The position numbers and the translations under genes are program-made. The notes beneath the pieces were generated by a model. That model was not told where the DNA came from, did no database searches, and saw only the letters and a program-made list of their open reading frames with translations. From Tausonia pullulans (Eukaryota; Basidiomycota; Tremellomycetes; Cystofilobasidiales; Mrakiaceae): DNA of 64,000 nucleotides. The stretch spans positions 248,001-312,000 of the forward strand of contig OX637634.1 in the NCBI GenBank assembly GCA_951802195.1. Reading direction: 5' to 3'. This document shows, in pieces, positions 802 to 40,659 of this stretch. Position 1 is the stretch's first letter. Each line of letters starts with the position of its first letter.

Positions 802-1101
802 TTTTTTTTTTTTGTATTTAAGTCATGAGTTATACGTGGAGAACGAGGTAACCCTATGAGAGATAGCGAGTTGTAGCTAGATAGAGGGAGAGCGGACATG
901 ACCGAGCGCGAGAACGTCGGGCGAGGCGCCGTGGGAAGAGGGTTGGCCGAACCACTGGGGATGGTTGGCCGGACGGCGTGATGGGCGCCGTGAGAGGGGG
1001 GGGGGGGGGGGTTGGTCGAACCACTGGGGATGGTTGGCCGGACGGCGTGATGGGCGCCGTGAGAGGGGGGGGGGGGGGTTGGTCGAACCACCGGGAACGG
1101 G
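802..1101 (-). mobile_element. Short non-autonomous element with LINE-A tail
   Basis: On the minus strand this ends in the LINE-A terminal block (CATGACTTAAATAC plus an A-run, T 802-813 on the plus strand). It has no ORF2 sequence. Upstream of the shared tail of about 90 nt lies a unique part, then about 2.5 copies of a G-rich unit containing GGTTGGTCGAACCA and the inverted repeat ACGGCG...CGCCGT. It is bounded by ACGGG at 797-801 and 1097-1101, a possible target-site duplication. It looks like a SINE-like partner mobilised by the LINE. No A/B-box promoter is certain. Confidence 0.75.
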
Positions 1102-1338
1102 TTTTTTTTGTATTTAAGTCATGAGTTATACGTAGAGAACGAGGTAACCCTATGAGAGATGGTGATTCGTAGCTAGATAGAAGGAAAGCGAAAATGAAAG
1201 TAGGGGTAGAAGGAAAACAAAGGATGGGTTATGGACATAGGCCCATTAGAAAAAGGTAAGATATCAAAATGTCCGGCTAATTCAAGCGGTGGCTATGGTC
1301 TATAGTCTAGCCATACTTCTCCATCCCTGACCTGCTGT

Positions 1339-4300
1339 TCACCCAGGATCGATGGCGGCACCGAGGGCAGTACCAGCCATCTGGCCACTGCCAGCCATCC
1401 ACCTCGTACTCGACTGCCAGAGTGTCCGTCGGATTGTGGACGCGATCTTGCGGATTTCCTCGTCCGTGACAGGATCGAGGGCTGCGATCTTGCTGTACCT
1501 CCGCCTCCGGACGAATCGCCATGTCCGGGCTACAAAGATGCAGTGGAAGAGAAAGACCGCCCTCGGCGGCGACGGTGTCGGGCAGACGAGCGTCTGGAGG
1601 GAGGGAGGATAGGAGGGGAGCGAAGGCGAGGCACGTGCAGCAGCCGCCGACCAGATAGCGCGCACGACGGGACACGGCTCGTCGAAGAGGTGGAAGAAGG
1701 ACTCGACGGGGGCCGTCAGGCACAGCGCACATCGCTTGGACCTGTTGTGCGGCGTAGCGGTTCCGTCGGCGAGGAATGGCGCAGCAGTGTGCTTTCCTGG
1801 GTGAAGACTGTACAGCGAGAAGCGGTGGGCCAAGTCGACGTCTTCGGGCGACGCTCGGGACACGGCCTTGAGCAAGCACCACTGCCGCTTCCAATCGATC
1901 TTGGTAAGCGCCGGAAAGTGGTCTTGCCATCCCTTTGGGGTGATGAGGTCGCGGTTGGCTAGAGTACGACTGTGTGCGCCGTGGGGCTCACGAGGGACGT
2001 TCAGCCGGCCAAGGTTCGTGTGGGTAGGGAGGAAACCCAGCCGCAACTGGCTATCTGTACCGAACGTAGACATCCAGTGGACAGTGTTCCTCCAGCGGTC
2101 TTGATTCCAGTAGCTCATGTCAAAGCTGATTTCTTCGAACCATGCCCGGAGGTAAGCCTGCCATCGTGCAGGGAGAGCTCTTCGGAGCCTTGGGATGGCA
2201 TTCCACCAGACGGCTGGGAAGAACCATTGACCTTCCACTGGGGAAAGGAATACGCCTAACCAGCTGAAATTGGCGGGCCGGGGTCCACTGATGAACTCTC
2301 CATCCCTGAAGATGGTGCGAGTCAGCTTTCTATAAGCTTCTGGATCGAGGCTCATGGTATGGATGATGCGCTTGCGAATGCGGATCGATGCGGGGAGCTC
2401 CGGGTGGAAGAGCACATCGCCCGCCCACTGAGCTCGCGCTTTGATGAGCCGGAATCGGAGTGGCGTGAAGCCGAAGCCGCCGAGGTCTCGAGGGGTTTCT
2501 AGACGTTCCCTGCTGACGTCGTGGTGTTTCGATCGGTAGAGGGACTTGTAGGCCGTTGTCTCGAGGTCTGTCAGGATATCGTCTGGGCACGGCAGGAAGC
2601 GGTCCAGGTAGATGACCTTCGAGTAGATGTACTGGTTGATGACGTTGCATCGCGCAAGGAGAGGGAGGTCGTGCAGCGGGATGCGAGCAAGACGAGCCTT
2701 CAGCTTGCCGATGATCTCTCGCCAGTGAGCAGGCCCGTTGACCGTGCGACCGCATGGAACGCCGAGGAAGTCAAATGAAAGCGTTTGGACACGCCACTCG
2801 CGGTACATCGTAGGCGCATCCGTCCGGCATGACCCTAGAGGATAGAGGAGTGATTTCTGGTAGTTCATCTTGCTTGCTGCGGCTTTCTCGTACTCTCGGA
2901 GGCAGACCGTCGCCTCATCGACCTCCGACCAGGTCCGACACCGGATACTTAGATCGTCTGCAAAGAGGAGGACCTTCCGCTCATGTAGAGGGGGCGGATT
3001 GGCCGGTGGGAGGCGATGGCGGAGCATACATGCCAGCGGCTCCAGAAGGAGGGCGAAGATCGTCGGTGCCGCGGGATCGCCCTGTCGGACACCAGACCGG
3101 ATGTCGATGGCTTGACCCATCCATCCGTTGATCATGAGGCGAGCAGTCTGAGAGGTCATCGTTGAGGTGATCCACGCGGCGGCGCGTGGGCCGAACCCCA
3201 TGTGGCGGAGGCAGGGGCCAACAAAGTCGTGCGATACTCTGTCGTATGCCTTCTCAAAGTCGACTTGGGCGAGGACGCCAGGCAAAAGGTCTTCGTCGTC
3301 AATGGCGAGCTGAAGAGAGGAGATGTTACGACCCGAGTCGCGGCCAGGGAGGAAGCCTGTCTGGTCCCCGTCGATGAGGGTGTCCACGACGGTGAGCAGG
3401 CGGCTGTTGATGGCAAGGGAGAAGATGCGAGCGTCAACGTTGATGAGCGAGATCGGACGATAGTTGGCAATCTGATCGCGATCTCCCTTCTTCTTGAAGA
3501 TGAGATGGATATGGGCCTCGCGCTGTGAGGCGGATCGGAGGCCTGTCTCCGGAACGAGGTTCAGCAGACTGAGGAGGATCGGGCCGACGACAGCCCATGT
3601 GGCCTGGTAGAACTCGACGGGGATCCCGTCGCTTCCTGGTGTCTTGTTACGGTTCGATCTGAACGTAGCCCGCCTGAGCTCGTCCGGTTCGAAGGGTTTC
3701 TCGAGGGTCCGACTCTGGGAGTCGTCGAGTGTGTTGGTGACATATCGGAGGGCGTTGGCGTGCTCGGCAGCTGGCGTCGGCTTGGGCTCATAGAGAGTCG
3801 TGTAGAAGGCATGTGCTGTAGTAAAAATGCTCTCGTTATGTGTGGCGGCTGCGGCTGCTGGGTTGTCGAGTGGCCGCAGGGCTGCGATGGTGTCGGCCTG
3901 GCGGACGATCTTGAGTCGCTGCTTGACGGCGTACTCGCTTGTGTTGGCTGGTTCGAGGTGGGCTCGAAGAGCGTGGCCTTGGAGGATCGACCTATGTGGA
4001 TCCCCGCCTGACACTCTGCTCATTCGGGCGAGGTGTCTTGAGATGCAAGGTGCATTCTCCTTTATCTGTAGCTTGGTCTTGTCCCAAGCCTCGAAGGGGT
4101 TCTTGCTCTCGGTGAGCGCATCTTGGTACCACTCGGGGATATGGAAGAGGAAGTAATCAACAAAACCTGTAATCTTCAGCAGGTGTGTGCCGATCTTGTA
4201 TGATCCGGGACCGTGCTCTATTGCACCGGGGAAGGTGAGGCTGAGTGCGATCGGCTTGTGGCTAGAGTATAGGTGGCCAGACGGTCGTGGGAGGAAGCGC

Positions 4301-5013
4301 TGTTGCACGGCTCGGCGAGCGAGTAGAGGCGACAGGTAGAAGCGATCAATGCGGCGATCTGCTCGCGTGATGCCAGTATAGTTAGTGTATTCGCGCTGGA
4401 GCGGATATAGGGATCGGTATGGGTCAGAAAGGGCAAAGTCCCGGGCTAGCCGGCACATTTCCTCCTTTCCCGCGTTCTGGGTAAATTGGCTCATCCCGTC
4501 GAGGTAGCTGTCCTCCACACAGTTCCAGTCCCCTCCCAGGAGGAGAGGAGTGTCAGAGTGGGCAGGTATCTTGCGAGATAGAGTAGAGAGGAATTCCTTT
4601 GTCGAACGGCCGTTTGTTTGGCTGTCTCGGCAGGGGACGTAGACTGCAGCCACCCTGACGGCTTCGCCGGCGATGACGAACACGGCATCCGTCAGGTTGG
4701 CTCGTAAGATGGAAGAGGAGCGGGAGATGGATCCGATCCTAGTCGGAGGGGTATCGGGAGGAAGGAATCGAGAGGCATGTCGCCAGAGGATGGCAGTCTG
4801 GCAGCTGACCGTAAAGATCGAGCCGAAGCCCATATCTTCACACTCAGCTGTCCAGGTCACCACCTGCTCTGGTGTCGTGCATGCCACTTCTGAGAGAAGG
4901 TATATGTCAGCCTTGGATCGTGAATAGAGAGAGAGGAGGAGACTGCGGGCGCGATCTCGCGTGAACACCCTCTGGATGTTCGCCGCGACGATCTGTACAT
5001 CATTGTACACCAT
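1339..5013 (-). CDS. LINE-A ORF2: AP endonuclease + reverse transcriptase
   Basis: A 1224-aa ORF2 protein. Residues 1-270 are an apurinic-like endonuclease (VAANIQRV, GGDWNCVEDSYLDG, SSHKPIALSL). Residues about 400-720 are a reverse transcriptase with NKTPGSDGIPVEFY, IANYRPISL, DQTGFLPGR, QVDFEKAYDRVSHDF, GVRQGDP and the catalytic FADD. The C-terminal region (about 1090-1125) has a CCHC finger, CALC...HLFDEPC, typical of LINE proteins. No RNase H domain is evident. It would nick the target and copy the element RNA there. Its ATG lies within TAATG at the ORF1 stop. The copy at 35646-39320 has the same length and is nearly identical, implying recent activity. Confidence 0.93.
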   Translation of the reverse strand: MVYNDVQIVAANIQRVFTRDRARSLLLSLYSRSKADIYLLSEVACTTPEQVVTWTAECEDMGFGSIFTVSCQTAILWRHASRFLPPDTPPTRIGSISRSSSILRANLTDAVFVIAGEAVRVAAVYVPCRDSQTNGRSTKEFLSTLSRKIPAHSDTPLLLGGDWNCVEDSYLDGMSQFTQNAGKEEMCRLARDFALSDPYRSLYPLQREYTNYTGITRADRRIDRFYLSPLLARRAVQQRFLPRPSGHLYSSHKPIALSLTFPGAIEHGPGSYKIGTHLLKITGFVDYFLFHIPEWYQDALTESKNPFEAWDKTKLQIKENAPCISRHLARMSRVSGGDPHRSILQGHALRAHLEPANTSEYAVKQRLKIVRQADTIAALRPLDNPAAAAATHNESIFTTAHAFYTTLYEPKPTPAAEHANALRYVTNTLDDSQSRTLEKPFEPDELRRATFRSNRNKTPGSDGIPVEFYQATWAVVGPILLSLLNLVPETGLRSASQREAHIHLIFKKKGDRDQIANYRPISLINVDARIFSLAINSRLLTVVDTLIDGDQTGFLPGRDSGRNISSLQLAIDDEDLLPGVLAQVDFEKAYDRVSHDFVGPCLRHMGFGPRAAAWITSTMTSQTARLMINGWMGQAIDIRSGVRQGDPAAPTIFALLLEPLACMLRHRLPPANPPPLHERKVLLFADDLSIRCRTWSEVDEATVCLREYEKAAASKMNYQKSLLYPLGSCRTDAPTMYREWRVQTLSFDFLGVPCGRTVNGPAHWREIIGKLKARLARIPLHDLPLLARCNVINQYIYSKVIYLDRFLPCPDDILTDLETTAYKSLYRSKHHDVSRERLETPRDLGGFGFTPLRFRLIKARAQWAGDVLFHPELPASIRIRKRIIHTMSLDPEAYRKLTRTIFRDGEFISGPRPANFSWLGVFLSPVEGQWFFPAVWWNAIPRLRRALPARWQAYLRAWFEEISFDMSYWNQDRWRNTVHWMSTFGTDSQLRLGFLPTHTNLGRLNVPREPHGAHSRTLANRDLITPKGWQDHFPALTKIDWKRQWCLLKAVSRASPEDVDLAHRFSLYSLHPGKHTAAPFLADGTATPHNRSKRCALCLTAPVESFFHLFDEPCPVVRAIWSAAAARASPSLPSYPPSLQTLVCPTPSPPRAVFLFHCIFVARTWRFVRRRRYSKIAALDPVTDEEIRKIASTIRRTLWQSSTRWMAGSGQMAGTALGAAIDPG

Positions 5014-6890
5014 TATTCTTCCATGTCCTCGGCTTCAGCCAAGGTCACGAGGGTGCGCTCGATGGATGCCTGGGAGGATGGCGTGGAGGAGATGAGAGAA
5101 GGAGTGGAGGGTGGGTTCAGGGGGATCGAAGATGGCGGGGATGGGGATGGGGGTGGGGGGGACGATGGTGACAGGGGAGGTGGAGTGGAAGGTGGATGCT
5201 CGTCTTCGACCTGCATCCCGTCTTCTGTCCTCGCCATACCCCCCTCGTTGTCCTCCTCTAGGGCGCTCAGGGTGCGAATGGGTTGCGAGTCCGCATTGCG
5301 CGGTGCTTGCTCTGAGTGGGAGTGGGAGGAATCGGCGTGGGCAGGAGGTGTGGTCATCTCCGTCGTGGCTTCGGTCGGCCTGTTCAGTGACCTCCTTTTG
5401 GATTTGTGTACGAGCTGGTATCCATCCAGGTCTGGTCCCGGTTCGACAGGTCGGTGGGGGGGTCCTCCTGTTGGTGCTCGTGCACTCGCTGGAAGGTTTG
5501 CCTTCGGACGACCTGGGCATCGGGTCGAGGGGTGGGCGCGCGATCCACATCCGCTACACTCTGGAGCGGTGGGACACTCGGGACGAGCGTGCTCAGATGA
5601 GTGGCAGTAGTAACAGTACGTCGAGGCTGGTTGGGATGGAGAGTTTTTCGCAGCGCCAGCCTGGACAGGTTTGAAAATGACGTTGTGGTTGACCCAGTCG
5701 GGGAACTGCTGGGTGAAGGCATTCGCCCCCGGTATCGTCTTGGAGCCAGAGAGATCGAGTAAGACTCTAATCCGGCCAGTTAGGGAGTTGGGTGCGCGGG
5801 GGTGGAATTGACGCTGGAAGAAGATGACTCTGTCTCCGGAGGCCTCTACCTGTTTGCGAAACTCCTCCTCAACTCCGTCGTCGTCTTCGAAGTTCACCAG
5901 TAGGCCTTCTTGCAGGAATTTGTTTTGGGAATTGTAGCACGCGTGAATCTGAGGTTTCACTCCTCTCACATTCAGCGGCAGGGACTGTAGTTGGGTCAGG
6001 ATATCTTGAGCATTGCCTCGAGGCTTGACTTGGATGAGCATTCTGCCTTTAGGGTCCTTGAAGGGACGGGTCAGGCCAGGCAGACGTTCGTCGCACTTGG
6101 CAATTGCGATCGCGATCTCGAGGGGGGTGGTATCTCGGGGGACGGAGATGGCTAGACAGTTCCCACGATCAACAGCCAAGGCTGGGGCGATTGGGGTCTT
6201 ATCCTGCGGAGGTTGTTGATCGGTTCCGAAGACGAAAGAGAACTGGGGCTGGGTGCCAGACGAGTCGCGTTGTCTCGCAGCTGAGGTTGTAGGATGAGCC
6301 TGTTTGGCGGCGTTCGCATATGAGCGGCCGATGGCGTTCGGCTGGGATTTCGCGGCGGCGCGAGTGCGAGTGCCGGCGGAGTTCGCCGGCGCGGGCGACG
6401 CGGCGCCGGGGACGAAGAGAGGTTGTTGAGGGAGAGTCTCGCCTGTAGAGCGAGACGGTGTGAGACGCGTCACTTCGGACGTTGAGGATAGAGCGGCATT
6501 GAGGTCGCTGATGGCTGAGCTCGACCGCGTGACACGGCGAGTTGAGGGGGTTGCAAGGGTCCTGCGGAGGGGGGAGGGAGAAGAGAGGAGAGCCGAGGGG
6601 CTGACATGGGGGGGAGGGTTGGTAGGAGTGGTAGGGTTGGTAGGGTTGGTAGGGTTGGTAGGAGTGCTAGGGGTGCTAGGACTGGTCGGATGGGTAGGTG
6701 GGCTGAGGGTGGGTTTGTTGGCGAGCGTTTGGGGACGTTCGTCGACGCGAGAGGGCGTATTGGTCGCGTCCTGGACGCTGGGGGTTTCATCGGATCCGCT
6801 CTTTCTCTTTGCTGGAGAGGGAGGGTCTGGGGGATCCTTGGGAGCCTTGAGGGCTTCTTGGAGTCGCTTGGGGGTTGATTCACTAGGCAT
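5013..6890 (-). CDS. LINE-A ORF1, nucleic-acid-binding protein
   Basis: A 625-aa ORF1 protein of LINE-A copy 1. The N-terminal 200 residues are Pro/Ser/Thr-rich and look disordered. A middle region (about 230-400) starting near CLAISVPRDTTPLEI probably forms the RNA-binding fold. It is followed by two CCHC zinc knuckles near residue 430: CYYCHSSEHARPEC (CX2CX4HX4C) and CSGCGSRAHPSTRC. The C-terminus is again Pro/Ser-rich and acidic. Such proteins coat the element RNA as a ribonucleoprotein. The stop TAA overlaps the ORF2 start as TAATG, which suggests ORF2 is translated by termination-reinitiation. Start ATG 6890 is the first in the frame. Confidence 0.85.
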   Translation of the reverse strand: MPSESTPKRLQEALKAPKDPPDPPSPAKRKSGSDETPSVQDATNTPSRVDERPQTLANKPTLSPPTHPTSPSTPSTPTNPTNPTNPTTPTNPPPHVSPSALLSSPSPLRRTLATPSTRRVTRSSSAISDLNAALSSTSEVTRLTPSRSTGETLPQQPLFVPGAASPAPANSAGTRTRAAAKSQPNAIGRSYANAAKQAHPTTSAARQRDSSGTQPQFSFVFGTDQQPPQDKTPIAPALAVDRGNCLAISVPRDTTPLEIAIAIAKCDERLPGLTRPFKDPKGRMLIQVKPRGNAQDILTQLQSLPLNVRGVKPQIHACYNSQNKFLQEGLLVNFEDDDGVEEEFRKQVEASGDRVIFFQRQFHPRAPNSLTGRIRVLLDLSGSKTIPGANAFTQQFPDWVNHNVIFKPVQAGAAKNSPSQPASTYCYYCHSSEHARPECPTAPECSGCGSRAHPSTRCPGRPKANLPASARAPTGGPPHRPVEPGPDLDGYQLVHKSKRRSLNRPTEATTEMTTPPAHADSSHSHSEQAPRNADSQPIRTLSALEEDNEGGMARTEDGMQVEDEHPPSTPPPLSPSSPPPPSPSPPSSIPLNPPSTPSLISSTPSSQASIERTLVTLAEAEDMEE

Positions 6891-6928
6891 AAGGTAGGGT
6901 GACCTGGATTGACCTGGTGGTGGTTGAG

Positions 6929-7102
6929 TTTTTTTTTTGTATTTAAGTCATGAGTTATACGTGGAGAACGAGGTAACCCTATGAGAGATAGCGAGTTGTA
7001 GCTAGATAGAGGGAGAGCGGACATGACCGAGCGCGAGAACGTCGGGCGAGGCGCCGTGGGAAGAGGGTTGGCCGAACCACTGGGGATGGTTGGCCGGACG
7101 GG
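6929..7102 (-). mobile_element. Short non-autonomous element next to tRNA-Glu
   Basis: A second short element with the LINE-A terminal block (T-run 6929-6938 on the plus strand), the same unique part as in 802-1101, and less than one repeat unit at its 5' end. It ends in GGACGGG at 7102. It sits between LINE-A copy 1 and tRNA-Glu, so if insertions enter at a fixed distance from the tRNA it is the newest of the stack. Confidence 0.75.
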
Positions 7103-7754: not shown

Positions 7755-7759
7755 AAAAA
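7755..7759 (-). terminator. Pol III T5 terminator of the permuted tRNA
   Basis: TTTTT starts one base (C 7760) after position A37, directly behind the 5' half. This is where a permuted precursor should end. It would prevent transcription of any conventional downstream 3' half. Confidence 0.75.
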
Positions 7760-7760
7760 G

Positions 7761-7835
7761 TACGAGTGACGCGCTCTACCACTGAGCTATCAGGGCGCAA
7801 GCCCCAAACCAGGTTTGAACTGGTGACCTCATCAT
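7761..7835 (-). tRNA. Circularly permuted tRNA-Thr(CGT) gene
   Basis: On the minus strand the 3' half comes first (7835-7800, positions 38-73) and the 5' half second (7796-7761, positions 1-37). Three nt (TGC, 7799-7797) join the discriminator T73 to G1. All stems pair across the halves: acceptor GCCCTGA/TTGGGGC (two G-T wobbles), D stem GCTC/GAGC, anticodon stem CGTCA/TGATG (one G-T) and T stem ACCAG/CTGGT with loop TTCAAAC. Invariant bases T8, A14, G18, G19, A21, T33, G53-T54-T55-C56, A58 and C61 are present. The joined anticodon loop is CTCGTAA, the usual tRNA-Thr(CGT) loop. The break lies exactly between 37 and 38, the eukaryotic tRNA splice position, and a T5 run follows at once. I see no 5' half upstream and no 3' half downstream, so two ordinary tandem genes do not explain it. 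Known permuted tRNAs mature through splicing to a circle, then end trimming. Confidence 0.87.
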
Positions 7836-7868
7836 ATCAAACCGTGAAACGAGGAAGGAGGCTAAGGA

Positions 7869-7880
7869 GCAGCTGAGCTG
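7869..7880 (-). promoter_or_regulatory. A-box-like motif upstream of the permuted tRNA
   Basis: CAGCTCAGCTGC matches the Pol III A-box consensus TRGCNNAGYNGG at 10 of 12 positions. It lies 60 nt before the B box (T-arm, starting at 7820), a normal A-to-B spacing. The internal A box of the permuted gene is downstream of its B box, so an external A box could restore the usual order. It cannot be the missing 5' half: no acceptor strand matches TTGGGGC and no D stem forms. The role is inferred. Confidence 0.4.
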
Positions 7881-7899
7881 TTCCTCGGTCTGCATTCAC

Positions 7900-10445
7900 C
7901 TCGAATGTTGCAGGTTGCCTGCTCGCGGCTGTCCACAGCAGTGCGGGAAAGCGTGCTCCAAATGTGTTTCTTGGAGAAGACCGGCCAGCGCACGGTTGAG
8001 GGCGCAGCCTGGCAGACGACACGGTCGCATCTCCACAACTCATGCCATGTCTCTACACATGCCTCTCTTAGGGGTGTCAAACTCTCCAAGAGACAAAGCT
8101 GGCTGCCATCTCTTCAGTTCACCATTGACTCCCTCCGACCCATTGACGATCTGGAGGCTGAAGCTGTCACCTCCATCTGCGATATTCTCGCCATTGCCTA
8201 CTTCTTCACTATTCTCTACGAGCCCAACCCGACTTCAACCGACCAGGACGGCAAGATCCTCAACTACGTCACTGTCAAACTCGGAAATCCCAGAGCCGGA
8301 ACCTCGATCGTCCCTTTGACCTCGTCTTACTCAAGTTCGACGCTTTCAGTTCGAACTACAACAAGATGCCCTGAAGTGACGGGATCCCGGTTGAGTTCTA
8401 CCAGACTACCTGAAGTGTGACGGGCTCGATCCTCCTCGACTTGTTGAGCCGCGACCCCGAGACAGACTCTCGCTCCCTGCCCAGCGCGAGGCGCACGCAC
8501 ATCCACCTCATCTTCAATAAGGGGCGCCCGGGGGACAATGTCACTAACTACCGTGCCATATCCCTTCTCAACCTAGACGCCCGCATCATCTCCCTCGCCA
8601 TATACAGCCACCTGCTGTCTGTCATCGACTTGATCATCGACGTCGACCAGACGGGCTTCCTTCTGGGCCGCAACCCTGGCAGCAACATTTCCACTCCCCA
8701 GCTCTCCATCGCCGACGAATTTTCATATCTGGCATCCTCTCCCAGGTTGAATTTGGGAAGGCGTACGACAGGACGACTGGGTCGTCAGTCCATTACAACT
8801 TGGTCCGGCGTTCGTCAGGGCAACTGCTGCTCCGACTAGGTTCGCCATCATCTAGAACCCCCCTGTATGTTCCGGAAGCACGTTTCCCTAATATCTCCCC
8901 CACACACACTCCCCAACAACCTATATTCTCTTGCCAACACGACCCCAGCATTCGCTACCGGACCTGGGAGGATGTCGACGAGGCTACCGCCTGTCTTGGT
9001 GATTACGGGAAAGCTGCGGCGAGCAAGCTGGATTACCAAAATGTTTACTGTACCCCTTTGGAGTTCGACGTATCAACCACACAAAGAAAGGGGACGGACT
9101 CATCAAGACTAAGATTCGCTTCGCCCGTATCCCGTGTCACGACCTCATGCTCACCGCTCGATGCCACATCACCAGTCATCATGTTTGCTCGAAGGTGATC
9201 TACCTTCACCGTATACAGTCCTGCCCAATTCCTCTTCGACTACTTCGAGAATACAGCCCAAGACACTCTTTGGAGCTCGCGCCGCCCGCAGGTTTAATGA
9301 CTTCGACAGGAGACCACCCTCCGCAAGCATGGCGGGTTTGGTTCCCCCTCGCTCATTTACCGCTTCCTTCCTGCTCGAGCCCGGTGGTTCTGCAACATCT
9401 TCTTCCGACCAGAGCTCCATGCCTCGATCCTCATCCGACATTACTCATCAACAAGATCCGAAGTTAGCCAAATGACTTCATGATTGACACCGTCGTCCGT
9501 TGGGCCGAGGGCCACACGGTGCCTGACCGAGACGTCATCTACGGCTGGGCAAGTCTCTGTGTCTCCTCACCCATATGCCCTCGCCCTTCCTGGTGCTACC
9601 TCCCTATCCAGGAACTACGTCGCGCCTCTCTACTCACTGGCGCGCCTACCTGGATGCCTGGAACAAGGGGCTCTACCTCGACCCTAGGTATTGGAAGATG
9701 CAGCTCAGGAGCATAACAACAATACTCTATCAACAATAATATACTCTCCGCCTTATTACATCCTTTATACCTTCCCACGCGGCATGTGTCCGTCTCGACA
9801 TCCCCCAGCAAGCCCACCCGACGCGCGGCCGCCGCCCAACTGACTAAGTACTCCCGTATCATCCCGGACAGTTGACAGAATGACTTCTCACGCTGCACCA
9901 GCGCCGACTGGAAGCGATGCTGACGTCAGAGCGTCAGCTCAAGGCCCTTCCTTTCCCGAGCCTCGCTTGGAAACGTCGACCTCGCCCATCGTTTCTCCCT
10001 CTATCTTCTCTAACCTCCCCACCGGGCAAGAAAACTGCATTAGCCTCGCTGGCGGACGGAATACTGATGCCGCAACCCGAGAGCATACGTTGTGTGCTCT
10101 GTCTCGCTGCCCCAGTAGGGTCCTTCTACCATCTCTTCGAAGAGCCATATCCTGTGGCACGCGCCATCTGGACCGCTGTTGCAACACTTGTCTCTCTCCC
10201 GCTTCATCCCTCCCTCCCGGATCCCAACTCTCTCCATGTCATATTCTTCTATTTCCCCCTCCCACTTCTTCTCCTCCTTCACTCTTTCTACCCTAGGCAT
10301 TCTTCCCCTCTCCCCTTTCATCCCCTCCCCTTCCACTTCCCCCCCCCCCCCTCTCTATCTATACATTGTTCTCCCCTCCCACTCTTGCTGCCTCCCATAG
10401 CGTCATACCATCCTCTACGCTTGATCCATGACTTGAATTCATATT
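7900..10445 (+). mobile_element. LINE-B, decayed 5'-truncated LINE
   Basis: A degenerate relative of LINE-A on the plus strand. It starts within ORF2: the stretch SLRPIDDLEAEAV...FFTILYEPNPT (about 8130-8240) matches LINE-A ALRPLDNPAAAA...AFYTTLYEPKPT. Reverse-transcriptase pieces follow at 8417-8839 (HIHLIFNKGRPGDNVTNYR, VDQTGFLLGRNPGSN) and a region like RYRTWEDVDEATACLGDYGK at 8950-9010. The C-terminal finger (CVLCLAAPVGSFYHLF) is at about 10090-10140. The tail has GATCCATGACTTGAATTC. Many stops and frame changes make it dead and clearly older than LINE-A. The exact 5' edge (7860-8050) is unclear. It begins just upstream of the permuted tRNA. Confidence 0.8.
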
Positions 10446-34978: not shown

Positions 34979-35411
34979 GGTGTTTTCTTTTGTATTCAAG
35001 TCATGAGTTATACGTGGAGAACGAGGTAACCCTATGAGAGATAGCGAGTTGTAGCTAGATAGAGGGAGAGCGGACATGACCGAGCGCGAGAACGTCGGGC
35101 GAGGCGCCGTGGGAAGAGGGTTGGCCGAACCACTGGGGATGGTTGGCCGGACGGCGTGATGGGCGCCGTGGGAGGGGGGTTGGTCGAACCACCGGGGATG
35201 GTGGTTGGCCGGAAGGGGGTTGGTCGAACCACCGGGATGGTGGTTGGCCGGACGGCGTGATGGGCGCCGTGGGAGGGGGGGGTTGGTCGAACCACCGGGA
35301 TGGTGGTTGGCCGGACGGCGTGATGGGCGCCGTGGGAGGGGGGTTGGTCGAACCACCGGGGATGGTGGTTGGCCGGAAGGGGGTTGGTCGAACCACCGGG
35401 ATGGTGGTTGA
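34979..35411 (-). mobile_element. Short non-autonomous element with minisatellite head
   Basis: Same architecture as 802-1101 and 6929-7102: LINE-A tail with A-run (T-rich 34979-34989 on the plus strand), a unique middle of about 70 nt and a long 5' head of tandem repeats. The head (about 35118-35410) has five units of about 62 or 39 bp. Each carries GGTTGGTCGAACCACCGGG and GGTTGGCCGGA; the long ones also have the hairpin ACGGCGTGATGGGCGCCGT. Copy number varies between the elements, so the array expands and contracts. Confidence 0.75.
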
Positions 35412-35645
35412 TTTTTTTTTTGTATTTAAGTCATGAGTTATACGTAGAGAACGAGGTAACCCTATGAGAGATGATGATTCGTAGCTAGATAGAAGGAAAG
35501 CGAAAATGAAAGTAGGGATGGAAGGAAAACAAAAGATGGGTTATGGACATAGGCCCATTAGAAAAGGTAAGATATTAAGATGACCAGATACACCAAGCAT
35601 TGGCTATGTACCACCAGCCATACTTCCCCACCCCTGACCTGCTTT

Positions 35646-38600
35646 TCACCCGGGATCGATGGCGGCACCGACAGCAGTACCAGCCATCTGGCCACTGCCA
35701 GCCATCCACCTCATGCTCGACTGCCAGTGTGTCTGCCGGATCGTAAACGCGATCTTGCGGATCTCCTCGTCCGTGACAGGGTCGAGGGCTGCGATCTTGC
35801 TGTATCTCCGCCTCCGGACGAATCGCCATGTCCGGGCTACAAAGATGCAGTGGAAGAGGAAGGCCGCCCTCGGCGGCGACGGCGTTGGGCAGACGAGCGT
35901 CTGGAGGGAGGGAGGATGGGAGGGGAGTGAAGGAGAGGCACGCGCTGCCGCAGCCGACCAGATAGCGCGCACGACGGGACACGGCTCGTCGAAGAGGTGG
36001 AAGAAGGACTCGACGGGGGCCGTCAGGCACAGCGCGCATCGCTTGGACCTGTTGTGCGGCGTAGCGGTGCCGTCGGCAAGGAATGCCGCAGCGGTATGCT
36101 TCCCTGGGTGGAGGCTGTACAGCGAGAATCGGTGGGCCAAGTCGATGTCCTCGGGCGACGCTCGGGACACGGCCTTGAGCAAGCACCACTGACGCTTCCA
36201 GTCGATCTTGGTAAGCGCCGGAAAGTGGTCCTGCCAGCCCTTTGGGATGATGAGGCCGCGGTTGGCTAGAGTACGACTGTGTGCGCCGTGGGGCTCACGA
36301 GGAACGTTCAGCCGGCCAAGGTTTGTGTGGATAGGGTGGAGACCCAGCCGCAACTGGCTATCTGTACCGAACGTAGACATCCAGTGGACAGCGTTCCTCC
36401 AGCGGTCTTGATTCCAGTAGCTCATGTCAAAGCTGACTTCTTCGAACCATGCCCGGAGGTAAGCCTGCCATCGTGCAGGGAGAGCTCCTTGGAGCTTTGT
36501 GATGGCATTCCACCAGACGGCTGGGAAGAACCATTGACCTTCCACTGGGGAAAGGAATACGCCTAGCCAGCTGAAATTGGCGGGCCGAGGTCCTCTGATG
36601 AACTCTCCATCCCTGAAGATGGTGCGAGTCAGCATTCTATAAGCCCCTGGGTCAAGGCTCATGGTATGGATGATCCGCTTGCGAATACGGATCGATGCGG
36701 GAAGCTCCGGTCTGAAGAGCACATCGCCAGCCCACTGGGCGCGCGCTTTGATGAGCCGGAATCGGAGTGGCGTGAAGCCGAAGCCACCGAGGTCTCGAGG
36801 GGTTTCCAGACGCTCCCTGCTGACGTCGTGGTGTTTCGATCGGTAGAGGGACTTGTAGGCCGTTGCCTCGAGGTCTTCCAGGATATCGTCTGGGCACGGC
36901 AGGAAGCGGTCCAGGTAGATGATCTTCGAGTAGATGTACTGGTTGATGACGTTGCATCGCGCAAGGAGAGGGAGGTCGTGCAGCGGGATGCGCGCGAGTC
37001 GAGCCTTCAGTTTGCCGATGACATCTCGCCAGCAAGCAGGCACGTTGATCGTGCGACCGCAGGGGACACCGAGGAAGTCGAATGAAAGCGTTTGGACGCG
37101 CCAATCGTGGTACATCGTAGGCGCATCCGTCCGGCATGACCCTAGAGGATAGAGAAGTGACTTCTGGTAGTTCAGCTTGCTTGCTGCGGCTTTCTCGTAC
37201 TCTCGGAGGCAGACCGTCGCCTCATCGACCTCCGACCAGGTCCGACACCGGATACTTAGATCGTCTGCAAAGAGGAGGACCTTCCGCTCATGTAGAGGGG
37301 ACGGATTGGCTGGTGGGAGGCGATGGCGGAGCATGCATGCCAGCGGCTCCAGAAGGAGGGCGAAGATCGTCGGTGCCGCGGGATCGCCCTGTCGGACACC
37401 AGACCGGATGTCGATGGCTTGACCCATCCATCCGTTGATCATGAGCCGAGCTGTCTGAGAGGTCATCGTTGAGGTGATCCACGCGGCGGCGCGCGGACCG
37501 AACCCCATGTGGCTGAGGCAGGGGCCAACAAAGTCGTGCGACACTCTGTCGTATGCCTTCTCGAAGTCGACCTGGGCGAGGACGCCAGGCAAGAGGTCTT
37601 CGTCGTCAATGGCGAGCTGGAGGGAGGAGATGTTGCGACCCGAGTCGCGGCCAGGGAGGAAGCCTGTCTGGTCCCCGTCGATGAGGGTGTCCACGACGGT
37701 GAGCAGGCGGCTGTTGATGGCAAGGGAGAAGATGCGAGCGTCAACGTTGACGAGCGAGATCGGACGGTAGTTGGCAATCTGGTCGCGATCTCCCTTCTTC
37801 TTGAAGATCAGATGGATATGGGCCTCGCGCTGTGAGGCGGATCGGAGGCCTGTCTCCGGGACGAGGTTCAGTAGGCTGAGGAGGATCGGGCCGACGGCAG
37901 CCCATGTGGCCTGGTAGAACTCAACGGGGATCCCGTCGCTTCCTGGTGTCTTGTTACGGTTCGATCTGAACGTGGCCCGCCTGAGCTCGTCCAGTTCGAA
38001 GGGTTTCTCGAGGGTCCGACTCTGGGAGTTGTCGAGAGTGTTGGTGACATATCGGAGGGCGTTGGCGTGCTCGGCGGCTGGCGTCGTCTTGGTCTCATAG
38101 AGAGTTGTGTAGAAGGCGTGTGCTGTAGCTAGAATGTTCTCGTTGTTTGCGATGGCTGCGGCCGCTGGGTTGTCGAGTGGCCGTAGGGCTGCGATAGTGT
38201 CGGCCTGGCGGACGATCTTGAGTCGCTGCTTGACGGCATACTCGCTTGTGTTGGCTGGTTCGAGGTGGGCTCGAAGAGCGTGGCCATGGAGGATCGACCT
38301 GTGTGGATCCCCGCCTGACACTCTGCTCATTCGGGCGAGGTGTCTTGAGATGTCTGACGCGTGATCCGCTATCTGAAGCTTGGTCTCGTCCCAGGCCCCG
38401 AAGGGGTCCCTGGTCTCTGTAAGCGCATCGTGGTACCACTCGGGGATATGGAATAGGAAGTATTCGACAAAACCGGTAATCTTCAACAGGTGTGTGCCGA
38501 TCTTGTATGATCCGGGACCGTGCTCTATTGCACCGGGGAAGGTGAGGCTGAGTTCGATCGGCTTGTGGCTAGAGTAGAGATGGCCAGACGGTCGTGGCAG

Positions 38601-39320
38601 GAAGCGCTGTCGTACGGCTCGGCTAGCGAGCAGAGGGGACAGATAGAAGCGATCAATGCGGCGATCTGCTCGCGTGATGCCAGTATAGTTAGTGTATTCG
38701 CGCTGGAGCGGATATAGGGATCGGTATGGGTCAGAGAGGGCAAAGTCCCGGGCCAGCCGGCACATTTCCTCCTTTCCCGCGTTCTGGGTAAATTGGCTCA
38801 TCCCGTCGAGGTAGCTGTCCTCCACACAGTTCCAGTCCCCGCCCAGGAGGAGAGGAATGTCAGAGTGGGCAGGTATTTTGCGAGATAGAGTAGAGAGGAA
38901 CTCCTTTGTCGAACGGCCGTTCGTTTGGCTGTCTCGGCAGGGGACGTAGACTGCAGCCACCCTGACGGCTTCGCCGGCGATGACAAAAACGGCATCCGTC
39001 AGGTTGGTTCGTAAGATGGCAGAGGAGCGGGAGATGGATCTGGTCCTAGTCGGAGGGGTATCAGGAGGGAGGAATCGAGAGGCATGCCGCCAGAGGATGG
39101 CCGTCTGGCAGTCAACCGTAAAGATCGAGCCGAAGCCCATATCTTCACACTCAGCTGTCCAGGTCGCTACCTGATCTGGTGTTGTGCATGCCACTTCTGA
39201 GAGAAGGTATATGTCTGCCTTGGATCGTGAATAGAGGGAGAGGAGGAGACTGCGGGCGCGATCTCGCGTGAACACCCTCTGGATGTTCGCCGCGACGATC
39301 TGGACATCGTTGTACACCAT
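35646..39320 (-). CDS. LINE-A copy 2 ORF2: endonuclease + reverse transcriptase
   Basis: A 1224-aa open frame, the same length as copy 1 and differing by scattered substitutions (for example ERKVLLFADD and SIRCRTWSEVDEA unchanged; FVEYFLF for FVDYFLF). The AP endonuclease, reverse transcriptase (FADD, QVDFEKAYDRVSHDF, GVRQGDP) and C-terminal CCHC finger are all kept. The start ATG again overlaps the ORF1 stop as TAATG. With few changes and no stops over 3.7 kb, insertion is recent or the frame is under selection. Confidence 0.9.
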   Translation of the reverse strand: MVYNDVQIVAANIQRVFTRDRARSLLLSLYSRSKADIYLLSEVACTTPDQVATWTAECEDMGFGSIFTVDCQTAILWRHASRFLPPDTPPTRTRSISRSSAILRTNLTDAVFVIAGEAVRVAAVYVPCRDSQTNGRSTKEFLSTLSRKIPAHSDIPLLLGGDWNCVEDSYLDGMSQFTQNAGKEEMCRLARDFALSDPYRSLYPLQREYTNYTGITRADRRIDRFYLSPLLASRAVRQRFLPRPSGHLYSSHKPIELSLTFPGAIEHGPGSYKIGTHLLKITGFVEYFLFHIPEWYHDALTETRDPFGAWDETKLQIADHASDISRHLARMSRVSGGDPHRSILHGHALRAHLEPANTSEYAVKQRLKIVRQADTIAALRPLDNPAAAAIANNENILATAHAFYTTLYETKTTPAAEHANALRYVTNTLDNSQSRTLEKPFELDELRRATFRSNRNKTPGSDGIPVEFYQATWAAVGPILLSLLNLVPETGLRSASQREAHIHLIFKKKGDRDQIANYRPISLVNVDARIFSLAINSRLLTVVDTLIDGDQTGFLPGRDSGRNISSLQLAIDDEDLLPGVLAQVDFEKAYDRVSHDFVGPCLSHMGFGPRAAAWITSTMTSQTARLMINGWMGQAIDIRSGVRQGDPAAPTIFALLLEPLACMLRHRLPPANPSPLHERKVLLFADDLSIRCRTWSEVDEATVCLREYEKAAASKLNYQKSLLYPLGSCRTDAPTMYHDWRVQTLSFDFLGVPCGRTINVPACWRDVIGKLKARLARIPLHDLPLLARCNVINQYIYSKIIYLDRFLPCPDDILEDLEATAYKSLYRSKHHDVSRERLETPRDLGGFGFTPLRFRLIKARAQWAGDVLFRPELPASIRIRKRIIHTMSLDPGAYRMLTRTIFRDGEFIRGPRPANFSWLGVFLSPVEGQWFFPAVWWNAITKLQGALPARWQAYLRAWFEEVSFDMSYWNQDRWRNAVHWMSTFGTDSQLRLGLHPIHTNLGRLNVPREPHGAHSRTLANRGLIIPKGWQDHFPALTKIDWKRQWCLLKAVSRASPEDIDLAHRFSLYSLHPGKHTAAAFLADGTATPHNRSKRCALCLTAPVESFFHLFDEPCPVVRAIWSAAAARASPSLPSHPPSLQTLVCPTPSPPRAAFLFHCIFVARTWRFVRRRRYSKIAALDPVTDEEIRKIAFTIRQTHWQSSMRWMAGSGQMAGTAVGAAIDPG

Positions 39321-40659
39321 TATTCTTCCATGTCCTCGGCTTCAGCCAAGGTCACGAGGGTGCGCTCGATGGATGCCTGAGAGGACGGCGTGGAGGGGAT
39401 GAGAGAAGGAGTAGAGGGTGGGTTCAGGAGGAGCGAAGATGGCGGGGATGGGGATGGGGGCGGGGGAGACGATGGTGACAGGGGAGGTGGAGTGGAAGAT
39501 GGATGCTCGTCTTCGACCTGCATCCCGTCTTCCTTCCTCGTCAGATCCCCTTCGTTGTCATCCTCTATGGCGCTCCGTGTATGGCTGGGTTGCGAGTCCG
39601 CATTGCGCGGTGCTTGCTCTGAGTGGGGGTGGGGGGGGCCGACGTGGGCAGGAGGTGTGGCCACCTCCGTCGTGACTTCAGTCGGCCTGTTCAGTGACCT
39701 CCTTTTGGATTTTTGTACGAGCTGGTATCCATCCAGGTCTGTTCCCGGTTCGACAGGTCTCTGGGGGGGTCCTTCGGTTGGTGCTCGCGCATTCGCTGGA
39801 AGGTTTGCCTTCGGACGACCTGGGCATCGGGCCGATGGGTGAGCGTGCGATCCACATCCGCCACACTCTGGAGCAGTGGGACACTCGGCACGAGCGTGCT
39901 CAAAAGAGTGGCAGTAGTAGCAGTACGTCGAGGCTTGACGGGATGGAGAGTTTTTCCCAGTGCCGGGTTGGACAGGTTTGAAGATGACATGATGGTTGAC
40001 CCAACCGGGTAGCTGTTGAGGGAATGCATTCGCCCTCGGCATCGTCTTGGAGCCAGAGAGGTCGAGCAGAACTCTAACCCGGCCAGTTGGGACGCCGGGT
40101 AAGCGGGCGTAATACTGGCGCTAGAATATGATGACTCTGTCTCCAGAGGCTTCTACTTGTTTGCGGAACTCCTCCTCCACTCCTTTGCCTTTTTCGAAGT
40201 TCACCAGCAGACCTTCCTGCAGGAGCTTGTTTTGGGAATTGTAGCACGCGTGGATCTGAGGTTTCACCCCTCTCACGTTCAGCGGGAGGGACTGTAGTTG
40301 GGTCAGGATGTCTTGAGCATCTTCTTCAGAGTCGACTAGGAGGAGCATTCTGTCTCGAGGGTCCTTGACAGGACGGACCAGGAAAGACAGTCGTTCGTCG
40401 CACTTGGAGATTGCGAGAGAGATCTCGAAGGGAGTGGTATCTCGAGGGACTGAGATGGCTAGACAGTTCCCGCGGTCGGTAGCCAAGGCTGGGGCGATTG
40501 GGGTATTATCCTGCGGGGGTTGTTGATCGGTTCCGAAGGCGAAGGTGAACTGGGGCTGGGTGCCAGACGAGTCACGTTGCCTCGCAGCTGAGTTTGTAGG
40601 ATGAGCCTGTTTGGCGGCGTTCGCATAAGAGCGGCCGATTGCGTTCGGCTGGGATTTCG
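39320..40659 (-). pseudogene. LINE-A copy 2 ORF1, truncated
   Basis: The C-terminal two thirds of ORF1. It begins inside KSQPNAIGRSYANAAKQAHP. The RNA-binding region and both CCHC knuckles (CYYCHSFEHARAEC, CGGCGSHAHPSARC) are present. One in-frame TAG follows RVIIF in the sequence RVIIF-stop-RQYYARLPG near 40120. Otherwise the frame is open. The N-terminal disordered region was lost through 5' truncation and inversion. Confidence 0.85.

Follow-up and report, generated by a model that had tools for sequence, protein, structure and literature searches.

The permuted gene in the window

The window analysed here, a stretch of 64,000 nucleotides, corresponds to positions 248001-312000 of contig C15 in an assembly of 23,855,473 bases on 21 contigs. 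On its minus strand, at 7761-7835, lies a tRNA-Thr(CGU) gene in which the 3′ half precedes the 5′ half. The part that is read first, at 7800-7835 (ATGATGAGGTCACCAGTTCAAACCTGGTTTGGGGCT), represents tRNA positions 38-73 and contains the B box. A linker of 3 nt, TGC (7797-7799), joins position 73 to position 1 and leads into the 5′ half at 7761-7796 (positions 1-37, GCCCTGATAGCTCAGTGGTAGAGCGCGTCACTCGTA), which carries the anticodon CGT and the internal A box. The trailer is a single C (7760) followed by TTTTT (7759-7755), a putative polymerase III-type terminator. In the leader (7836-7925, same strand) base -3 is a G (7838) that can pair with C32, and an external A box is non-significant (p 0.14).

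Bringing the halves together at 37/38 restores a complete set of 21 stem pairs (seven in the acceptor, five in the T, five in the anticodon and four in the D stem), with G-T wobbles at 5-68, 6-67 and 28-42. The initial annotation had described a 3′ half before a 5′ half on the minus strand with TGC between them, four stems that pair with only three wobbles, a joined loop CTCGTAA with the usual invariant bases and a breakpoint at 37/38, and the letters bear this out. It also had a run of five T following at once; the run is present but starts one base past position 37. The gene is missed by ARAGORN and by Rfam at the gathering threshold.

Permuted families across the genome

The genome contains at least 34 permuted genes on eleven contigs, comprising at least ten for tRNA-Thr(CGU), 21 for tRNA-Gln(CUG) and three for tRNA-Thr(UGU). 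A BLAST query of 181 bases around the window gene finds ten places on four contigs, so that a single copy need not be essential; the suggestion that this might be the lone, possibly essential tRNA-Thr(CGT) gene is therefore not upheld. The joined mature threonine body as query gives 20 half-matches, which make up ten loci, and the Gln(CUG) unit gives 21; every one of these loci is in permuted order. A pattern with two gaps, in which the B box precedes the A box, occurs at 13 places, nine of them permuted Thr(CGU) genes and four others.

Permuted Gln(CUG) and Thr(UGU) genes were first revealed by our permuted-order scanner on 40 short stretches of contigs C1 and C2, picked mostly at B-box places. 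The same stretches gave 28 ARAGORN calls, to which this cloverleaf scanner added one permuted gene of each of the two kinds. It made zero matches, at whatever score, when run on reversed and complemented versions of 308,516 bases, partly overlapping, or on five one-strand shuffles of them. BLAST found one of the three Thr(UGU) copies and a pattern search added two, so the BLAST counts are lower bounds and a contiguous gene could be missed in the same way.

The 3′ half lies upstream of the 5′ half on one strand in all 34 loci. The break falls between positions 37 and 38, the joined loops (32-38) reading CTCGTAA, TTCTGAT and CTTGTAA. All 21 cloverleaf pairs are present in each of the 31 Thr(CGU) and Gln(CUG) genes. 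The Thr(UGU) copies have 20, 18 and 18 of the 21, the latter two with one acceptor mismatch, two of four D pairs and no G18G19. These two copies (L169, C9:854.5k; L170, C11:569.6k) have leaders that contain CACTTGTACACG, a match to the 5′-half end and trailer of the third.

Differences between copies preserve pairing. Three types of Gln acceptor stem occur, GGTGGCA/TGCTACC, GGTTGCA/TGCGACC and GGCGGTG/CACTGCC. Joint changes across the linker are seen at 3-70 (T-A/C-G), 6-67 (C-G/T-A) and 7-66 (A-T/G-C), while 4-69 shows a wobble swap of G-T to T-G. In the T stem of Thr(CGU) the pair 49-65 undergoes a compensatory change from A-T to G-C. Since the acceptor partners flank the linker and change jointly, the halves, though reversed in order, behave as parts of a single RNA.

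Six loci of 3 kb with a permuted Thr(CGU) gene (L002-L007, on C4 and C9) all contain a tRNA-Ser(CGA) gene as well, its intron being called at 62-86 nt.

Contiguous genes and the remaining tRNA set

Is there a conventional gene for the same tRNAs? The initial annotation named a normal tRNA-Thr(CGT) gene with a matching body as evidence that would count against its reading. In a non-exhaustive search by BLAST and anticodon-arm patterns we found no contiguous gene for either Thr(CGU) or Gln(CUG). The Gln(CUG) anticodon arm CTCGGTTCTGA occurs at 30 genomic places, the 21 permuted genes and nine that yield no ARAGORN tRNA. The pattern GCGNNNCACTCGTA occurs at 18, ten permuted genes and eight, all fetched, in which no tRNA was found. 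Of 33 places with GCGNNNCACTNGTA, ten are permuted Thr(CGU) and three permuted Thr(UGU) genes; of the 20 others 14 were fetched, and no tRNA was found in them. These counts apply to genes with the anticodon arms used, the patterns being blind to any other arm, and to stretches that extend approximately 120-130 nt past the anticodon, such that an intron longer than approximately 85 nt could cut a gene off.

The tRNA genes called in ordinary order include those for Ala, Arg (ACG and CCT), Asn, Asp, Cys, Glu, Gly(GCC), Ile, Leu, Lys, Met, Phe, Ser, Trp, Tyr and Val, with His recognised by eye. Two ARAGORN calls were set aside on inspection: Thr(tgt) in L091 looks like His(GTG) with an intron and SeC(tca) in L118 like Leu(CAA) with an intron. 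Neither form of Thr(AGU), Pro or nuclear Gln(UUG) was seen in the stretches searched. A proline pattern matches six places, and no tRNA was found in the four fetched; a guessed nuclear Gln(UUG) arm, CTCGGTTTTGA, matches 18, all fetched, again with no tRNA found. The Gln(ttg) called on C21 is probably mitochondrial. At C6:684000-1020000 (L029-L036) there are repeated clusters of tRNA genes, Leu, Lys, Asn, Glu and often Ala, approximately 500 bases apart and on either strand.

Codon use was counted in three stop-to-stop stretches taken as exons. In this small sample of 608 codons CAG occurs 11 times against three for CAA, and ACG accounts for 16 of 36 threonine codons; the tRNAs for Gln(CUG) and Thr(CGU) should therefore both matter.

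Host and splicing machinery

The Sen34 gene (L073:1459-2418, minus strand) has its best named matches in Mrakia frigida (47% over 92%) and Phaffia rhodozyma (57% over 24%). With these as the nearest among named matches the host is a basidiomycete, probably near Cystofilobasidiales, which confirms the fungal host proposed at the outset. The search for splicing endonuclease sequences covered Sen2 and Sen34, and a Sen2 exon (L072) is encoded in addition to Sen34. A T4-type RNA ligase domain (RNA_lig_T4_1) is present at C6:341837-342704, and on the basis of family membership we infer that this protein is Trl1.

These components allow a route from gene to tRNA to be proposed. RNA polymerase III would transcribe the leader, 3′ half, linker, 5′ half and a U run as one precursor, which would fold with the linker closing the acceptor stem and the anticodon loop open. 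Leader and trailer could then be cut off at 38 and 37, respectively, by the Sen endonuclease, which would treat them like the ends of an intron that has been opened; the mature body and a pair between base 32 and leader base -3 or -4 would guide it. Sealing of 37 to 38 by a Trl1-type ligase would give a circle, from which RNase P and tRNase Z would excise the linker before addition of CCA. On the sequences available the permuted genes would thus presumably mature through a circular intermediate.

In yeast introns base 32 pairs with intron base -3. Here, in all 32 introns of ordinary genes, which are distinct ARAGORN calls kept by script from eight isotypes and hence not independent, base 32 has a potential partner at intron base -3 (28 cases) or -4 (four, all Ser GCT). 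In the permuted genes the corresponding leader bases offer base 32 such a partner in 22 of the 23 leaders (seven Thr(CGU), 13 Gln and three Thr(UGU), of which two Gln share one class and two Thr(UGU) look alike), the C11 copy of Thr(CGU) being without such a pair. Among the 54 other adjacent offset pairs used as a control, pairing averages 60% and never exceeds 82%. Counting against the trend, which was spotted by eye before its test, -3 alone pairs with base 32 in 14 of the 23 leaders and -6, expected to be irrelevant, does so in 15.

A helix between leader and trailer, resembling the bulge-helix-bulge (BHB), was rejected as a general feature. In Gln, using the 21 loci and 13 representatives, it is at the level of shuffles (combined p 0.26). 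By eye there is a possible short helix of this type at the C9 Thr(UGU) locus. When four precursors were folded by minimum energy, the structures were not cloverleaves, were no better than those of shuffles and proved uninformative.

Transcription signals

In permuted genes the A and B boxes are swapped in order (Soma 2014, PMC3978253), and Cyanidioschyzon merolae is described there as seeming to rely on an upstream TATA-like signal. In the leaders studied here no position bin stands out for a TATA-like signal; single AT-rich 10-mers, counted without a control, occur in some threonine leaders. A strong external A box is found upstream of the 3′ half in three of the seven Thr(CGU) leader classes, at -51, -27 and -38 (p ≤0.003 each), but in none of the 12 Gln classes, and it is also lacking in the window copy. 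The combined p over all 19 classes is 0.010. Given this distribution the external A box was rejected as a general promoter and retained only as a partial feature.

The window contains two copies of a non-LTR-type retroelement on the minus strand (940-7090 and 35103-40120), each with an ORF of 1231 amino acids; the first copy gives a reverse transcriptase match, with an endonuclease only below cut-off. Pfam searches of stop-to-stop ORFs returned this reverse transcriptase, a fungal transcription factor domain and two matches under cut-offs, and the transcription factor ORF gave no match in a protein search. Of nine ordinary tRNA genes examined, eight have a motif from the end of the retroelement upstream in antisense orientation, as do three permuted genes. 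On account of this placement the retroelement may target polymerase III genes.

The distance from the motif end to the gene is 83-113 nt in seven ordinary cases and 164 nt in the eighth; there is no motif within 400 nt of the ninth gene. For the permuted genes it is 119, 135 and 141 nt. When the A box is taken as the end point, the two permuted genes that have a strong external A box give 90 and 92 nt, against 90-120 nt for the seven ordinary genes. The values agree with the idea that the external A box serves as an A box, in a comparison that is post hoc, involves few loci and includes two related Ser genes among the seven. No motif was seen near other Thr(CGU) classes among the matches listed, and all but one of the Gln loci had an upstream flank too short for this check. 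One further motif (L027) is more than 1 kb from any tRNA.

Origin and alternative explanations

A route to permuted tRNA genes by tandem duplication has been set out (PMC3978253). The C4_640 leader aligns with almost the entire 5′ half of the same gene (p 0.009) and the C11 leader of Thr(UGU) likewise (p 0.03), with p >0.05 in the 21 other leaders. Over these 23 tests the combined p is 0.02 for Thr(CGU), 0.07 for Thr(UGU) and 0.81 for Gln, a hint, and only that, that leaders may keep decayed 5′ halves by way of tandem duplication.

These traces of decay are one reason to ask if the loci are dead or drifting tRNA fragments, either leftovers of tandem duplication or a dispersed, functionless tRNA-derived repeat. 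Such a reading would also account for the worn appearance of two Thr(UGU) copies and for the many copies, some of which have near-identical leaders (for example three on C9, two on C4, three on C11 and several on C18), a likeness that suggests segmental duplication. We nevertheless judge it very unlikely. The leaders of Thr(CGU) and Gln sort into seven and 12 classes, respectively, and behind them the body has been kept, that of Thr(CGU) near-invariant. Joint changes link the two halves and the T runs stay in place, with four or more T beginning within 15 nt past position 37 in 32 of the 34 genes and within 17 nt in all of them, compared with 3.8% of random places (≤15 nt) in the larger loci. 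The failure to find a contiguous gene for Thr(CGU) or Gln(CUG) also argues against fragments.

Halves in the wrong order would fit equally well with separate transcripts joined in trans, like archaeal split tRNAs. The halves are, however, only 3-53 nt apart (the linkers of the ten Thr(CGU) copies being TGC, TGG, CCT or AAA), no run of four T was noted by eye in the linkers inspected, and the T run occurs only past the 5′ half, which makes joining in trans extremely improbable. For an assembly or sequencing artefact we found no supporting point, and we give it a negligible chance, since the 34 loci are spread over eleven contigs, their leaders differ and their linkers range from 3 to 53 nt.

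We conclude that the window locus is very probably a working type II permuted (37/38) tRNA-Thr(CGU) gene, one of at least ten, in a basidiomycete that also possesses permuted genes for Gln(CUG) and Thr(UGU). The original proposal of a permuted tRNA-Thr(CGU) gene in a fungus thereby gains support from ten copies, a near-invariant body, seven leader classes, the compensatory change in the T stem, the T runs and the sequences of splicing enzymes.

A more extended model is, on balance, doubtful. It combines a split promoter, formed by the B box of the 3′ half and an A box in the leader that derives in places from the decayed 5′ half of a tandem duplication, with a wholesale move of several isoacceptors to permuted multi-copy families that tRNA finders miss.

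Comparison with known systems and implications

The architecture is known from red and green algal type II genes. As described in PMC3978253, those of C. merolae and prasinophytes also place the 3′ half first, with the junction at 37/38 and a linker from 73 to 1, have a T run past the 5′ half and lack a CCA ending the 3′ half. Table 1 of that article lists permuted Thr(CGT) and Gln(CTG) in C. merolae as well. The differences are several. The host here is a basidiomycete and not an alga. According to the same source C. merolae has one gene per anticodon, except for two in the case of Gly(CCC), as opposed to families of ten, 21 and three; it has a TATA-like signal, with TFC1 and TFC3 given as not found, where we see an A box in three of seven Thr(CGU) leader classes; and algal permuted genes are described as having a BHB-type helix between leader and trailer, which for Gln here is not above chance.

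The archaeon Thermofilum pendens also has permuted genes (Chan et al. 2011, as cited in PMC3978253), the shortest linker being 1 nt as opposed to 3 nt here, but as related in that article the junction is at 59/60, CCA is encoded and the endonuclease is archaeal. In the green alga Auxenochlorella reversed halves were likewise reported, having been found after tRNAscan-SE gave an incomplete set (PMC12633428). We met no fungal permuted tRNA among the papers listed in literature taken mostly from outside subscription journals, nor in the accessible content of PMC4033280, PMC4090602 and PMC8450103.

Counts of tRNA genes obtained with standard tools may run low in this fungal group. The genome of Phaffia rhodozyma is credited with 49 tRNAs of 12 anticodon species by tRNAscan-SE (PMC5103461), and it is possible, as a conjecture, that permuted genes are the reason for this count.

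Permuted tRNA genes have so far been known mainly from a few unicellular algae and one archaeon. If our interpretation is correct the arrangement arose again far from the algae, and transcription with swapped A and B boxes becomes testable in fungi. With no contiguous gene found for the permuted families of ten and 21 copies, it would also follow that splicing in fungi is able to sustain a main tRNA supply by this route.
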